Below are positions 876 to 56,138 of a stretch of DNA of 58,212 bases, in pieces. A model generated the notes under the pieces. It ran no database searches. It was not told where the DNA came from and saw nothing but the letters and a program-made list of their open reading frames with translations. The DNA lies in the IMG/VR virus record IMGVR_UViG_3300024433_000001, positions 1-58,212 of that record; one strand, 5' to 3'. Each line of letters opens with the position of its first letter. The stretch's first letter is position 1. The stretch comes from a virus. The position numbers were made by a program, and so were the translations under genes.

Positions 876-1913
876 TCAATTCCTTCCTGATTTGGGACTG
901 GGGTCATTACCAGACAACATCTCTTTTTTGAGCTTCTGGTAGCGTGCCACCTCAGCTTTCGCAAAGGTCAGTAGGTTTTTCCCAGTAATCCCGTAACGAT
1001 ACCGGTCACCGGGCATCAAGGTCTTTTTTGCCTTAAGGCACCTATGCTTAACCAAAAGAACAATTTCTGGATAACTACGTTTGAGAATATCTGCCGCACT
1101 GAAAAGGTTGTAAGACTGCTTAGGATCAATGTCGGGTAGGGTGGCAAGGCCCCATCGCACCAAACGAGGCAATCCGATATTATCGTGTTCGTCTGGGAAG
1201 TTCAGATAACAATTGTTGCCCCAGACTAGGCGTGCTGCGGCATCGTAAACACGAGCAGCATCTTCCGCTGTCTTGTGATAGCATAGGGAGAATTGGCGGC
1301 TATTGCGACCACAATAAATGGATGAATGCCATCTTGCCGTAGGTTTATGGAATGCCACGCCCTTGAAGCCCGATATCGAGCCTAGCCGAGGGCCACGTCC
1401 ACCAAGTTTTTGAGAACGGCGGTGTTCGCCAATCAATTTTGGGTTGTGTTTCTCGGGAAAGTTGAGCCAAGCAAACCCACGATATATTTTGCGCGCCGCC
1501 TCATCGTAAGCCATTGCAGCGGCCTTTTCATTATTAAACGTGCCAAGATAACGCGATCCGATATGCACTTCCCACCTATTTAGTTTAACCAGTTTTCTTA
1601 CACCTTTATATTGGCTGCTACGACCGCTATGGGGCGGCGCACTAGCCAACATCTGTCTCATCGAGCCAACTCGGAGGTTGGATTTGCGGTTATCGAGCGT
1701 GTTGCCGTTGATATGATTGACATACCAAGATTTTTTTGCGGCCAAAATCAGGCGGCACATACGGATTTGGCATTCCCCAATGGCACCCATCGCGTAAGGA
1801 ATATCTCTATTCGCCCCCTGCATTCCACAGTGCCATTTGATGCGAGATAGAAGTGGATAATCCTCATCGTCTACAATTGTGGATTTGCCTTGTGTTAAGG
1901 TGATTGTCTTCAT
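876..1913 (-). CDS. HNH endonuclease with two AP2/ERF DNA-binding domains
   Basis: 345 residues. An N-terminal HNH region carries VNHINGNTLDNRKSNLR (about residues 65-81), then two AP2 domains: one at about 98-152 (YKGVRK ... LGTFNNEKAAAMAYDEAA) and one at about 185-240 (FKGVAF ... KTAEDAARVYDAAA). AP2 domains with HNH nucleases mark a family of mobile homing-type endonucleases. The C-terminal 80 residues look like a further helical DNA-binding segment. It sits between the regulator at 1938-2204 and the recombination genes. Whether it is still a mobile element or serves the phage cannot be told. Confidence 0.88.
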   Translation of the reverse strand: MKTITLTQGKSTIVDDEDYPLLSRIKWHCGMQGANRDIPYAMGAIGECQIRMCRLILAAKKSWYVNHINGNTLDNRKSNLRVGSMRQMLASAPPHSGRSSQYKGVRKLVKLNRWEVHIGSRYLGTFNNEKAAAMAYDEAARKIYRGFAWLNFPEKHNPKLIGEHRRSQKLGGRGPRLGSISGFKGVAFHKPTARWHSSIYCGRNSRQFSLCYHKTAEDAARVYDAAARLVWGNNCYLNFPDEHDNIGLPRLVRWGLATLPDIDPKQSYNLFSAADILKRSYPEIVLLVKHRCLKAKKTLMPGDRYRYGITGKNLLTFAKAEVARYQKLKKEMLSGNDPSPKSGRN

Positions 1914-49341: not shown

Positions 49342-50250
49342 TCATTTAGGCTCGACGGCCCCGCAAGTTGTAGGGTTATGGTCATCACAAGCGTTTCGGT
49401 TACGCGGGGCCGCCAAGAACAAGTCCAGTGTTTCTTTTGGCTCGTATTCAAAATCGTTAAATGGAATATGCTCGAACCACCGCAAGCGCGAATAATACCG
49501 CATCATTCGTTTTAATTCTCTGTCGGTCCACCCTGGGGCCACATAACTATCTTTAGAAAGCGCATCAAGTGGCTGAAACCGCATTGGATTAGGCCGCAAA
49601 TTGAATGAGCGTACCCATTCCAATCGAGACTTTGCGTTTTCCGGATCATCATCAAACCCTATAAGAACATAGATAGAAATATCCGTTAGATTTGCTCGCC
49701 GCGCTGCCTGAATGGCATCAGCAACAATGACTTCGTCTTTGCTCGAATCAAAAGCGAATCGTATTTTGACATGTTGTAACGTTGCCAACAAACCGGCATG
49801 TTGTGACGTAAATAAACCCGCATCTAATCCCTGATTAAAGTCCACAGCCCTAAAAGGCCGAAGGGAATCAATTACACGCTCAAAATGTTTCCAAGATGAT
49901 TCAAGAATGTTGTTGTCACAAATCATGGGCGCAGGTCGCCATGACGATAGTTCGCAAAAGTCCCCCTCAACCTTTGGAACAATGCAATATGGACAACGGT
50001 TTGGACAACCTCGTGTTGTGAAGGTTGCACAAGGATTGTGAAAAAGAATGGGTTCTATTGGTGCCTCTTCTGGCGTTTCGTCAGCCCAAGGCGCGCCTAA
50101 AAGGCTGACGGCTGGACCACCAGCAACAACACGTCCTTGATGTGCTGTTGCAATTATCTTGGCATTGGGCAACAACCACGTAAACGGGACAGATATATAC
50201 AGTGCTTCCCCAATGCGCCACTTAGCTATGTTTTTGTGCCACTGATTCAT
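49342..50250 (-). CDS. Radical SAM protein next to DNA methyltransferases
   Basis: 302 residues. The iron-sulfur motif CPNRCPYC (CxxxCxxC, about residue 89) follows a TTRG strand, then the barrel continues with VDFNQGLDAGLF, KIRFAFDSSKDEV and a YVLIGFDDDPENA. No substrate domain can be named. The start overlaps the methyltransferase stop (ATGA). Neighbouring genes modify DNA bases, so action on nucleotides or DNA is a reasonable but unproven guess. Confidence 0.85.
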   Translation of the reverse strand: MNQWHKNIAKWRIGEALYISVPFTWLLPNAKIIATAHQGRVVAGGPAVSLLGAPWADETPEEAPIEPILFHNPCATFTTRGCPNRCPYCIVPKVEGDFCELSSWRPAPMICDNNILESSWKHFERVIDSLRPFRAVDFNQGLDAGLFTSQHAGLLATLQHVKIRFAFDSSKDEVIVADAIQAARRANLTDISIYVLIGFDDDPENAKSRLEWVRSFNLRPNPMRFQPLDALSKDSYVAPGWTDRELKRMMRYYSRLRWFEHIPFNDFEYEPKETLDLFLAAPRNRNACDDHNPTTCGAVEPK

Positions 50251-51635
50251 TCTTCACCACACGGGGCCGCCGAGGTTTCTGCTTCATGTAGATATATCTG
50301 GCTTGTCCGTTTCCTGGCCATATCACAATATTTAGGGTTAAGCTCGATACCAATAGCGTTTCGGCCAAGCCGCTGCGCTACGAGCAACGTTGTGCCCGAT
50401 CCCACGAAACAATCCAAGACCGTACAGGGAATGGGGGTAGGATAACTGTTCGTAACATCCATACCCCCAAAGTCTATATCGCCACACCCAACACAGTTAC
50501 AAGATGGTTGCCAACCAACTGTTTTCTTTGCGGCACAGTATTCGGCCCCCGCGATTCGGGCTGCTTGTCGCAATAAGGCTAGTCTGCCGACAGAACTACC
50601 GCTTGGATAGGCCGAATGTGTTTCAGCCTTATGCGACGCGGCGCTTTTTTTTACAACACGAATCCAGGGCGATCCACACTTCGGACAACATCCCTTTTCG
50701 CTTGTGCCGGCCTTGATACATCGCTCGACAAGCGCTTGGGGAAAAACGGCAAAGTGACTTTCCGAGAATGGCTCGGTTGGGATGGTCCATACATCACGGA
50801 CATTACGGCCCTTACTGGCATCGCCATAACGCTTCCTTCCGTTGTGTAACCCACCAGTCGTTCGGTTACCAGACTTGAGAAGCCCGAACGTCTTGTGATA
50901 TTCGGTCTCGCGCCGATATTCGCGGTCTGGATAAACAAACGGTTCCCGTATTGAGTCGCCATCCCAAAAATAGGTTGGCGATTTCGTAAGCAGAAATATA
51001 TGCTCATATGACTTTGTTGGCCTATCCGTCACGCTCTCGGGCATTGCATTCGCCTTTTCCCAGATAATGTCTGAGCGCAACCACCAGCCATCGGCCTGGA
51101 GAGCAAGCGCGGCCCTAGCGGGTATCATGCAAAGCTGCTTACGTTTCAGGCCGGCTTGAGACCAATCTGTTTTCGCCATATCATTATCCGTTATTACGGC
51201 TTTGCCGTGACCAGATCCGATGCCCTTTCCGCTCCCTGAATAACTGTCGCCTAGCACCAGCCAGAGCGTGCCATCGTCACGCAGCACACGCCGCACTTCC
51301 TGGAATACTTGAACGAGCTGGTCTACATAGGCCGCCGGTGTTTTCTCAAGGCCAAGTTGTTTGTCAACCCGTCGCGCACCGCATCTGGCGCAAATTTCCT
51401 TGTATCCTTCCTGGGATTGGGCAACTGTCTTTTTGCCTCCCCTTAATGTAGATGATGCGATTTGCGGATTGTTCCTAACCTTGTGGGCACATTCCGAATC
51501 TCCGCCCTCCCACGCCCTAGTACCAAAATCCCGGAGGCCCCAGTAAGGCGGCGAGGTACAAACGGTGTGTATTGATTCCGTCTTCATACCGCTTAATACC
51601 TCCAGGGCATCGCCCTGAATCACCTCAATGCTCAT
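50247..51635 (-). CDS. DNA methyltransferase, beta class (N4-cytosine or N6-adenine)
   Basis: 462 residues. Motif IV TSPPYWGLRDFG is near the N-terminus and motif I DCFVGSGTTLLVAQRLGR near the C-terminus, the beta-class order. A Cys-rich insert (CARCGARR, and CPKCGSPWIRVVKKS ... CNCVGCG) may bind zinc. The central part (DNDMAKTDWSQAGLKRKQL) probably covers target recognition. The target base cannot be told from sequence; the WGLRDFG form is frequent in phage solitary methylases. Overlaps RusA by 4 nt. Confidence 0.9.
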   Translation of the reverse strand: MSIEVIQGDALEVLSGMKTESIHTVCTSPPYWGLRDFGTRAWEGGDSECAHKVRNNPQIASSTLRGGKKTVAQSQEGYKEICARCGARRVDKQLGLEKTPAAYVDQLVQVFQEVRRVLRDDGTLWLVLGDSYSGSGKGIGSGHGKAVITDNDMAKTDWSQAGLKRKQLCMIPARAALALQADGWWLRSDIIWEKANAMPESVTDRPTKSYEHIFLLTKSPTYFWDGDSIREPFVYPDREYRRETEYHKTFGLLKSGNRTTGGLHNGRKRYGDASKGRNVRDVWTIPTEPFSESHFAVFPQALVERCIKAGTSEKGCCPKCGSPWIRVVKKSAASHKAETHSAYPSGSSVGRLALLRQAARIAGAEYCAAKKTVGWQPSCNCVGCGDIDFGGMDVTNSYPTPIPCTVLDCFVGSGTTLLVAQRLGRNAIGIELNPKYCDMARKRTSQIYLHEAETSAAPCGEE

Positions 51636-54111: not shown

Positions 54112-54717
54112 TTATATATGACAAACCTCTTTTAGCTTTACTGTGTCCATATCCCAAGGCATTACCAATGCGCCAATACGCCATTTGCCCCCCGATTTTA
54201 TTTCAAAGATTAGCGGGTGCAACAACAAGTTAGCTGGGCGGGTCCCTAACCATCTGCCGCCCTGGTCTGTGAACAACTGGATATAATCGAGACTTACAGC
54301 CAAAAGCGTAAAGAAATCTTTGGGGTTGTGATTCCGAAGTAGGCGCACAAGAATGTCCGCGTTATCGGGGTCCGATACCGGGTTTACTAAGTCAACAAAT
54401 TCAAGAACACAATAATCTTTGTACCGAAGACGAACGGACCGCATTAACTCTGTTATTGTAATTGGGCGGGTCGGCATTTTCGCCTTTTGACCAAACTTGA
54501 ATCCCCCACAATGGTCATAGCTGAATCGGCCACGGGATATGGCCTTTCGGAACTTCGGTGCGGTAAACGTCACCGGCAAATAATGGGTGTCAATAAGCCA
54601 ATGTCTATTTGTCAACCGACGCCCATCAAAGTATGTCTTATACTCTAGCTTGTTTATCCGCGTTTTTAGCACAATTGGTTTTCTTTCTATCTTCACCGCA
54701 CTGTTTGTAGCCATCAT
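54112..54717 (-). CDS. Unknown protein upstream of the SbcC-like gene
   Basis: 201 residues. Beta-rich with KTYFDGRRLTNRHWLIDTHYLPV and a C-terminal GGKWRIGALVMPWDMD. GGAGG lies 7 nt before ATGATG. It overlaps the 3' end of the methyltransferase second frame by 80 nt. No metallophosphoesterase motif, so it is not an obvious SbcD replacement. Confidence 0.65.
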   Translation of the reverse strand: MMATNSAVKIERKPIVLKTRINKLEYKTYFDGRRLTNRHWLIDTHYLPVTFTAPKFRKAISRGRFSYDHCGGFKFGQKAKMPTRPITITELMRSVRLRYKDYCVLEFVDLVNPVSDPDNADILVRLLRNHNPKDFFTLLAVSLDYIQLFTDQGGRWLGTRPANLLLHPLIFEIKSGGKWRIGALVMPWDMDTVKLKEVCHI

Positions 54718-55918
54718 TCAACAACCTCCATGCTGCCGCAGCCACTGCCGGAACCTGCCCATTGCCAAGGGCTTTAAGTCGGTCCACGCGATGGGCTATT
54801 TTCTGTGCAACACGAGGGATGGCAGCCTCCCAGGTTCCCTCCAGCCAAGCCGCTCTGCCGTATGATGGATAAATCTGTGGCACCAGATGCACAGGGTCTG
54901 CAAGTTCTCCAGCCTTATGTTCTTGTGATTTCCGTCGAGGTGGTGTGTCTGAAGTCGCCGTTTTATTCCACAAGCCTCGCAACTCTTCTTGCGATATTTG
55001 CTTGCCCGCCACAGCCAACCCGACTTGGATAAAGATTTCCTTGTGTTCGCACACGAAAGAGTGCAGTACTTTCGCCTCTTCCAAGCCCCCCAATCCTCCA
55101 GGCGCGTTCCGAACCTCTTGCGCCGCATCATTTTGCCGCATGTTTGGCACCGTTTCGGTTTTTCCACCTTTCGCCGCATGGGCTTCTCCTTGCCTGAACC
55201 CCCTAAGCCACTTGCTAAACGATAGCACGTTCATGGGGTCTAAGCAAGTCCAAAATTGCGGCCAGCCCATCAAAAGTTCGACCCACTCGGGATTCAACTG
55301 GCCCTTCTCGCCCGTCGCACGCTCCATCTGCTTGCGGAACTGACCACTTATCTGGCCATGCGTTTGTGGCCCTTCGCCCCCCACATTCGGGGTCGGGAAC
55401 GTCCGCCGGGTCGGTGTCCCACCAATGGATTTCCTGACAGCATCGTTCAGGGTGAAGGTCCGTTGCGGGTTGATTCGCCCCGGGTGTTGCCCGTATCTCT
55501 TGCCCTGTCCCGCGTCTGGCGTCAGCCACATGTGTACCGCCGTGCCGAGCTTGGGCGTTGATACCTTGCCCCCCGCTTTGCGCTTCTGAAAATTCGCGTC
55601 CCCGTCCGTCAGGGCCGTACTTCTCGGACTCGGCCATAATCCACAGCCTATTTCTCCGATGTGGCGCTCCCAACTCGGCTGCCGATAGACAACGCCATCG
55701 AGCATCATACCCGCTTTCGGCCAGGTCTCCGAGTATTTGTCCGAAATATCCGTGACTCCCGGCAAGCAGGTTTGGGACGTTCTCCAAGAATACGTATTGT
55801 GGTCGTACAATGCGAACCACTGCAATTGTTTCGGGCCACAGGTTTCGTTTGTCTGTCTCGCCTCTCCGGTTACCGGCACAGGACCAGGGTTGGCAGGGGA
55901 ATCCTGCCGTAAGGACAT
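54638..55918 (-). CDS. C5 methyltransferase second subunit (recognition part and motifs IX-X), alternative frame
   Basis: 426 residues from an internal start (55918) that has AAGGA 7 nt upstream. From the start it resembles the phage family with TYSWRTSQTCL, SETWPKAGMM, GLWPSP and LNPEWVELLMGWP; its end RVDRLKALGNGQVP and the helix after it are motifs IX-X of C5 methyltransferases. It overlaps the catalytic subunit's gene by 704 nt in another frame. Two-polypeptide enzymes of this kind are known (M.EcoHK31I, M.AquI). Here the stretch between about residues 246 and 374 is occupied by an HNH gene in the third frame, making this subunit longer than expected. Confidence 0.7.
   Translation of the reverse strand: MSLRQDSPANPGPVPVTGEARQTNETCGPKQLQWFALYDHNTYSWRTSQTCLPGVTDISDKYSETWPKAGMMLDGVVYRQPSWERHIGEIGCGLWPSPRSTALTDGDANFQKRKAGGKVSTPKLGTAVHMWLTPDAGQGKRYGQHPGRINPQRTFTLNDAVRKSIGGTPTRRTFPTPNVGGEGPQTHGQISGQFRKQMERATGEKGQLNPEWVELLMGWPQFWTCLDPMNVLSFSKWLRGFRQGEAHAAKGGKTETVPNMRQNDAAQEVRNAPGGLGGLEEAKVLHSFVCEHKEIFIQVGLAVAGKQISQEELRGLWNKTATSDTPPRRKSQEHKAGELADPVHLVPQIYPSYGRAAWLEGTWEAAIPRVAQKIAHRVDRLKALGNGQVPAVAAAAWRLLNDGYKQCGEDRKKTNCAKNADKQARV
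54796..55179 (-). CDS. HNH endonuclease nested in the methyltransferase locus
   Basis: 127 residues. Zinc-type pairs CQTCG and CTLSC, then CEACGIKRRLQTHHLDGN, NLQTLCIWCHRFIHH: a complete treble-clef HNH nuclease. AAGGAG lies 6 nt before the ATG. It uses the third minus-strand frame, entirely inside the gene of the second methyltransferase subunit, ending just before that subunit's motif IX. It is therefore probably an inserted homing-type nuclease whose DNA is also read through by the host gene. Confidence 0.85.
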   Translation of the reverse strand: MRRKVEKPKRCQTCGKMMRRKRFGTRLEDWGAWKRRKYCTLSCANTRKSLSKSGWLWRASKYRKKSCEACGIKRRLQTHHLDGNHKNIRLENLQTLCIWCHRFIHHTAERLGWREPGRLPSLVLHRK

Positions 55919-56138
55919 CAACCATTCCTTGATAGATTTCAGCGCATCCGTTTTCGATGAACGCACGCACATTACCGAAAATAGGCGCATCAGTAAGCAA
56001 TCCATCTTCGATCCGTTGTGCAATAACTTTTTGGCAAAAGCAGTCAATTTCTACGTAGCCTATCGTTGTCCAACCCAACAAATGTTGTGTGGCGAGCAGT
56101 CCGCCCCCTGCGCCACTGAATAAACTAAGCTCATACAT
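55215..56138 (-). CDS. C5 cytosine DNA methyltransferase, catalytic subunit
   Basis: 307 residues. Motif I LSLFSGAGGG (4-13), motif IV GFPCQPWS with the catalytic Cys at about 82, motif VI ENV (119-121), motif VIII GAPHRRNRLWIMA (about 160-172). The following 130 residues lack motifs IX and X, which are found in the overlapping frame. The start at 56138 is chosen because motif I must begin within a few residues; the Shine-Dalgarno site is weak and overlaps the previous gene. Confidence 0.88.
   Translation of the reverse strand: MYELSLFSGAGGGLLATQHLLGWTTIGYVEIDCFCQKVIAQRIEDGLLTDAPIFGNVRAFIENGCAEIYQGMVDVLTAGFPCQPWSCAGNRRGETDKRNLWPETIAVVRIVRPQYVFLENVPNLLAGSHGYFGQILGDLAESGYDARWRCLSAAELGAPHRRNRLWIMAESEKYGPDGRGREFSEAQSGGQGINAQARHGGTHVADARRGTGQEIRATPGANQPATDLHPERCCQEIHWWDTDPADVPDPECGGRRATNAWPDKWSVPQADGACDGREGPVESRVGRTFDGLAAILDLLRPHERAIV

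Follow-up and report, generated by a model that had tools for sequence, protein, structure and literature searches.

Overlapping genes for a probable two-chain phage C5 methyltransferase and an HNH homing-type element read through in a second frame

How can the conserved motifs of one DNA (cytosine-5) methyltransferase come to lie in two overlapping reading frames, and can both frames be at work? The question is raised by a stretch of 58,212 bases (the window), which is an entire viral contig. Within 1.5 kb of its minus strand we found three open frames, each in a different phase. A sequence-only reading had interpreted two of them as a split C5 methyltransferase and had pointed to M.EcoHK31I and M.AquI as known two-polypeptide enzymes. 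The second chain of M.EcoHK31I is encoded in an alternative frame; M.AquI has, as far as we know, neither a 704-bp out-of-phase overlap nor an HNH gene, and to our knowledge very few enzymes of the overlapping split C5 type have been described. The locus probably encodes a two-chain phage C5 methyltransferase whose alpha and beta genes overlap and which carries an HNH homing-type element that is read through by beta.

The alpha and beta frames

The alpha frame runs from an ATG at 56138 to a stop at 55215 (55215..56138, minus strand, 307 aa). Searched separately, as had been proposed as a check, it matched the Pfam DNA_methylase family PF00145 (E=1.2e-33). Motifs I, IV (PCQ), VI (ENV) and VIII are all in this frame, as the sequence-only reading had stated, and together define the catalytic domain of a C5 methyltransferase. 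Motif IV, with the catalytic cysteine, reads GFPCQPW (55884..55904, minus strand) and motif VIII reads GAPHRRNRLWI (55638..55670, minus strand). Compared with PDB profiles, alpha matched M.HhaI (E=2e-34) over motifs I-VIII only, and the rest of the chain is a filler tail. In an AlphaFold2 model residues 1-175 were mostly confident and residues 200-307 had a pLDDT <50. This low-confidence, disordered tail is the part that overlaps the target recognition domain (TRD) part of beta.

The beta frame lies in +1 relative to alpha and is open from a TTG at 56047; from the ATG at 55918 to the stop at 54638 it encodes 426 aa (54638..55918, minus strand). The internal Shine-Dalgarno site claimed for the second start is present as AAGGA (55926..55930, minus strand), 7 nt 5' of the ATG, and the distance from this ATG to the alpha stop is exactly the 704 nt of overlap that had been given. 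An ATG was found at the place of the beta start in 27 of 69 relatives, and a Shine-Dalgarno-like sequence in 18. Along beta the order is a TRD-like region, motif IX, a read-through linker and motif X. The frame carries the IX-like sequence LNPEWVELLMGWP and, as motif X, RVDRLKALGNGQVP. In its own search the N-terminal part of beta matched phrog_1008 and its end matched the C-terminal end of phrog_363, the earlier part of which corresponds to alpha. Motif X in beta is this phrog_363 match. Motif IX was called by pattern, position and constraint, and hhalign against canonical motif IX of four single-chain methyltransferases gave no significant match. The predicted structure of beta was of low confidence (mean pLDDT 56) and its sequence had no match in the PDB; the position of the region points to beta as the seat of the TRD. 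Placing a recognition region and motifs IX-X in the second frame agrees with the phrog_363 match for X and, more tentatively, with the pattern of IX and the position of the TRD; the HNH gene that intervenes had been missed.

When the alpha codons of the window were shuffled synonymously, an open beta frame had p=0.008; the reverse shuffling gave p=0.001 for alpha. A single-sequence search with beta returned only four loci and an alignment query was then used, from which 80 of 440 confirmed viral loci were taken. Most loci were thus gathered via beta, with other phage loci added, and several of the comparisons condition on both alpha and beta being detected. In all 100 loci where both were detected, beta lay in the same +1 frame of alpha, with a median overlap of 723 nt. 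Coliphage N15 gp58, Klebsiella phage Seifer, Paenibacillus phage Shelly and mycobacteriophage Moonbeam are among the overlapping loci. Codon permutation gave p<0.05 for the beta frame in 91 and for the alpha frame in 99 of the 100. The overlap is not a frameshift error and is conserved in about 100 loci, which bears out the proposal of a methyltransferase split over two frames.

Canonical single-chain C5 methyltransferases do occur in distant relatives such as Streptococcus phages, and the second frame could in principle be a sequencing or frameshift artefact of one such continuous gene. The probability of this is negligible, given that the same +1 overlap recurs in all 100 beta-bearing loci, that both frames stay open beyond what synonymous shuffling predicts and that motifs IX and X keep a constant phase and offset. 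A small alpha-first sample also contained canonical single-chain enzymes (Streptococcus phages, Klebsiella phage phiKp_26 and Caulobacter phage CcrBL10), all of them distant; near relatives with one continuous frame, the case named beforehand as speaking against a split enzyme, were not found. The alpha protein of the window had no match among viral contigs, and N15 gp58 had none among E. coli genomes at megablast sensitivity. A search limited to the open literature, which does not prove absence, found no published account of the phage overlap or of the HNH element.

Two annotations touch on this layout. In Stenotrophomonas phage SOVA965 (L001, 1304-2029) only beta is annotated, as DNA-cytosine methyltransferase, and the catalytic alpha frame is unannotated. 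Streptococcus phage MM1 ORF14 (L141:1399-1882), annotated as a putative methyltransferase, probably shadows, in +1, motifs IV-VIII of ORF13, a canonical single-chain enzyme.

Among characterized enzymes, M.EcoHK31I (YGGCCR) consists of two polypeptides with motif IX alone on the small chain and motifs I-VIII, X and the predicted TRD on the large one; in M.AquI, alpha holds motifs I-VIII and beta the distal variable region and motifs IX-X (PMC3404938). The window resembles M.EcoHK31I in its two chains and alternate-frame overlap, and the M.EcoHK31I motif split matches that of most relatives. It differs in having motif X in the second chain, an inserted HNH gene and a TRD that codon constraint puts in beta instead of the large chain. 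In its distribution of motifs over two chains, with X in beta, it is like M.AquI. The comparison with these two enzymes therefore holds for the layout, which is AquI-like by motifs and EcoHK31I-like by overlap, but motif X in beta sets the window apart from M.EcoHK31I. Mycobacteriophages Commander and Obama12 represent the AquI-like phage form, and the 'g55 internal gene' of Paenibacillus phage Shelly, annotated without interpretation, has the same alpha/beta +1 overlap.

Codon constraint along the overlap

Because a near relative of the window was not found, codon rates were taken from other family members, as the divergence at alpha positions 1/2/3 between the members of 26 disjoint pairs. 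The values for motifs I to IV were.157/.091/.365, and alpha is constrained. In the TRD, between motifs VIII and IX, they were.490/.371/.342, a pattern that we read as constraint on beta because alpha position 1 is the wobble position of beta. At IX/X, with.178/.048/.112, both frames are constrained. In finer windows beta took over the constraint from alpha at motif VIII and alpha regained it after ∼16 codons of motif IX; ∼8 codons are constrained in both frames, as RVDRLKA in alpha and GWTDLKP in beta. The second frame is thus conserved among relatives between VIII and IX, as a split enzyme would require.

Counts of stop codons delimit the start of beta. Beta-frame stops numbered 114 against 133 expected upstream of motif IV and 3 against 136 from IV to VIII, and third-frame stops were at expectation (240 against 241). 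The difference between the two sides of motif IV therefore places the beta start near this motif. The first ∼75 residues of beta are translated but mostly dictated by alpha. A candidate role for this N-terminal part as a conserved recognition domain was rejected, since its likeness to Streptococcus phage ORFs and its codon pattern mark it as a shadow of alpha. The earlier impression that both frames read as natural proteins is incomplete in this respect: beta before motif VIII evolves mostly as the +1 shadow of alpha.

The passage of constraint from alpha to beta near motif VIII would also be expected if programmed ribosomal frameshifting at that point produced one fused chain. We consider frameshifting unlikely. 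Beta is stop-free from motif IV and not upstream of it, which independent initiation needs and a shift at VIII does not; a Shine-Dalgarno sequence and an ATG are present for beta; and in most relatives motif X would call for a second shift back into alpha. We therefore favour independent initiation, in which beta would start inside alpha and supply target recognition and motif IX, and alpha would form the catalytic and AdoMet half (motifs I-VIII). The two would then associate like the chains of M.EcoHK31I and M.AquI.

Motifs IX and X and the HNH element

Motif X in the second frame, as in the window, is the exception: most relatives have it in alpha, on top of motif IX in beta. Motif X in alpha begins exactly 38 nt after the beginning of motif IX in beta in 69 of the 75 loci in which both motifs were found. 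In one example, CGGGTGGACCGACTTAAAGCC, the same DNA encodes RVDRLKA in alpha and GWTDLKP in beta. This is a rare clear case of two conserved enzyme motifs sharing the same base pairs.

The window departs from this arrangement. Its 5' IX copy (55215..55297, minus strand) reads LNPEWVELLMGWPQFWTCLDP in beta and, up to the stop, ESRVGRTFDGLAAILDLLRPHERAIV in alpha, the latter being a decayed counterpart of motif X (the sequence of locus L003, for comparison, is RVADGVANRVDRLKAIGNGQV). A good motif X, RVDRLKALGNGQV, is found downstream in the beta frame of a 3' copy (54752..54790, minus strand). Between IX and X, in the third frame, lies an HNH endonuclease ORF of 127 aa (54796..55179, minus strand), preceded by the Shine-Dalgarno sequence AAGGAG (55186..55191, minus strand) 6 nt 5' of its ATG at 55179. 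It matched the HNH endonuclease families phrog_1271, phrog_2255 and phrog_8048 in PHROGs (E down to 1e-9) and has the invariant Cys and His of the HNH/zinc motif. The nine closest relatives of this HNH protein in a first scan of viral contigs were all situated between IX and X of an overlapping methyltransferase. A scan of genome contigs gave none with three HNH queries and 26 with eleven. The HNH family, of 47 loci, is nearly always found in overlapping methyltransferases.

Empty and occupied alleles of one site were found in the pair L071/L021, which share 96% identity upstream and are nearly identical outside the insertion. L071 is empty, with superposed IX and X. L021 has a recoded IX copy, the HNH gene and then a native IX/X copy nearly identical to L071; its motif X has switched from the alpha to the beta frame, and immediately behind the HNH stop its native IX persists as a dead remnant. 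The 3' copies of L092, L094, L095, L147, L219 and the window likewise retain traces of IX in their +1 frame. The window remnant, AWTDLKPLAMGRF (54751..54789, minus strand), lies in +1 of the X frame directly after the HNH stop; the L071/L021 sequence for comparison is GWTDLKPLATDR. Twelve hand-checked elements share the site.

Introns and inteins often house HNH endonucleases, and the ORF might be thought to be removed as part of an intein or a self-splicing intron. This is extremely improbable here. The HNH frame differs from the frames of both chains and a methyltransferase frame is open across the HNH gene, an Rfam search of the region gave no intron match, and instead of an intron boundary the L021/L071 pair shows a recoded duplication at the flank. 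The nearest precedent for an HNH element copying with a recoded IX is provided by fungal mitochondrial mobile ORFs (Allomyces atp6; Glomus atp6, atp9, cox2 and nad3), which replace the C-terminus of a gene (PMC3630166). In both cases an endonuclease ORF comes with a diverged replacement for the gene end and the displaced native end is kept downstream. In contrast to the fungal ORFs, the displaced end here encodes a needed motif in another frame, so that the nuclease gene would also have to be translated as a linker. In our reading, an element made up of a recoded IX copy and the HNH gene was inserted at the superposed IX/X spot. The HNH protein, which would be made from its own Shine-Dalgarno sequence, probably cuts empty alleles so that the element is copied in with the recoded IX, and motif X survives only in the displaced native copy downstream.

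Relocation of motif X left a trace in motif IX. The residue after WVE is W in 83 of 85 HNH-free and in 3 of 12 HNH-bearing loci (p=8e-9, kinship ignored), and L in the window. The W is fixed while the motifs are superposed because its TGG codon forms part of a Val-Ala in alpha; once X has moved, the residue is free. Release from overprinting explains the change more simply than a masked homing site, and the two are not exclusive. How such an overlap becomes resolved can thus be followed in naturally occupied and empty alleles, where the release of constraint is measurable at the W of WVEWLMG.

Other loci depart from the common arrangement. In three HNH-free loci (L010, L043 and L133) motif X is 104-125 nt downstream of IX in alpha, and in a fourth (L015) it is in beta; either duplication sufficed to resolve the overlap there, or an HNH gene was once present and has been lost. 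In L171 (2300-3990) a member of the same HNH family has entered at motif VIII instead of IX/X and is flanked on both sides by the motif VIII sequence GAVDVGAPHRRERIWIV. The family thus has a second site of insertion, located at the other point where alpha and beta hand over. L049 (3709-4132) has a more distantly related HNH gene at the same IX/X place, which suggests independent invasions of the site.

Read-through of the HNH gene

To reach motif X, beta in the window has to cross the HNH gene, and it does so in the HNH -1 frame, which contains no stops in the stretch concerned (54791..55249, minus strand); about 4 were expected (p=0.008). For a wider comparison, loci were collected by HNH similarity alone, those already known were added, and all were classified by the chain that reaches X. 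In 44 of 47 the HNH gene lies in an overlapping methyltransferase and its -1 frame is read through, by alpha in about 29-30 loci and by beta in about 14, the window included; L147 and L219 were assigned by reading. The HNH tree, which lacked resolution, gave two to three changes between alpha and beta read-through. Across the 44 loci the read-through frame had 0 stops against about 229 expected under synonymous shuffling, a sum of per-locus expectations to which three loci identical in HNH and one truncated contig (L158) contribute. Two controls were close to expectation: L222, away from any methyltransferase, had 8 stops (9.4 expected) and L225, where X is supplied upstream of the HNH gene, had 9 (8.0 expected). 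In L226 the other frame is used. The 12 hand-checked elements, among them L049 with its more distant HNH, had 0 stops against 61, each with p≤0.0175. The open read-through frame is selected.

Codon positions of the HNH gene were consistent with a double load, changing at.241/.266/.402. Position 2, which is the wobble position of the linker, is more variable than position 1; in a singly coding gene the order is the opposite (.091 against.157). These data bear on the notion that alpha is the sole real protein, beta a passive +1 shadow and the frame across the HNH gene open by chance. The N-terminal part of beta is indeed largely a shadow of alpha. As an account of the whole frame, however, a passive shadow is very unlikely, since between VIII and IX constraint falls on beta codon positions (alpha position 1 at.49, position 3 at.34), the read-through frame has 0 against about 229 stops with controls at expectation, and HNH position 2 exceeds position 1 (.266 against.241).

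Alternatively, the HNH insertion may have inactivated the enzyme in the window, leaving a decaying methyltransferase with a non-functional beta read-through. The decay of motif X in alpha fits this reading. We nevertheless regard it as rather unlikely, because a well-conserved X lies downstream in the beta frame, no stop interrupts the read-through (p=0.008) and about 14 divergent loci have retained this layout. We prefer a working two-chain enzyme, in which the HNH -1 frame would serve as a linker: a ribosome translating beta would reach X through the HNH gene, and the linker would join IX (or the alpha filler) to X. The enzyme would then consist of alpha (I-VIII) and beta (TRD, IX, linker and X), and beta must tolerate a linker of >100 residues that is the shadow of the HNH gene. 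We infer that the chains assemble into an active methyltransferase with a recognised sequence, and that the HNH protein cleaves empty alleles.

On balance we favour, somewhat less firmly than the two-chain enzyme itself, the view that this HNH family is specialised in doubly coding DNA. It would enter where conserved motifs of two different proteins (IX and X) are superposed and resolve the overlap with a recoded copy of a motif, its own gene would be doubly coding (for the nuclease and for a required methyltransferase linker), and the motif could be moved from alpha to beta. The locus shows that a selfish gene can be selected in its second frame for a host protein, a direct test of the survival of mobile elements in doubly coding DNA, which they can enter without breakage. 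It also shows that a single event can shift the border between subunits. The overlapping layout itself seems widespread in phages, where annotations often give it as a single gene or as a wrong one.

Three further ORFs of the window were noted. A 201-aa ORF (54112-54717, minus strand) overlaps the last 80 bases of beta and matched no known family in Pfam or PHROGs. A second HNH endonuclease (876-1913, minus strand; phrog_99, E=1e-31) belongs to other HNH families than the methyltransferase-borne one. Another DNA methyltransferase (50247-51635, minus strand; phrog_67) has 462 aa that span only ∼230 profile positions, and may contain an insertion or an extra domain.
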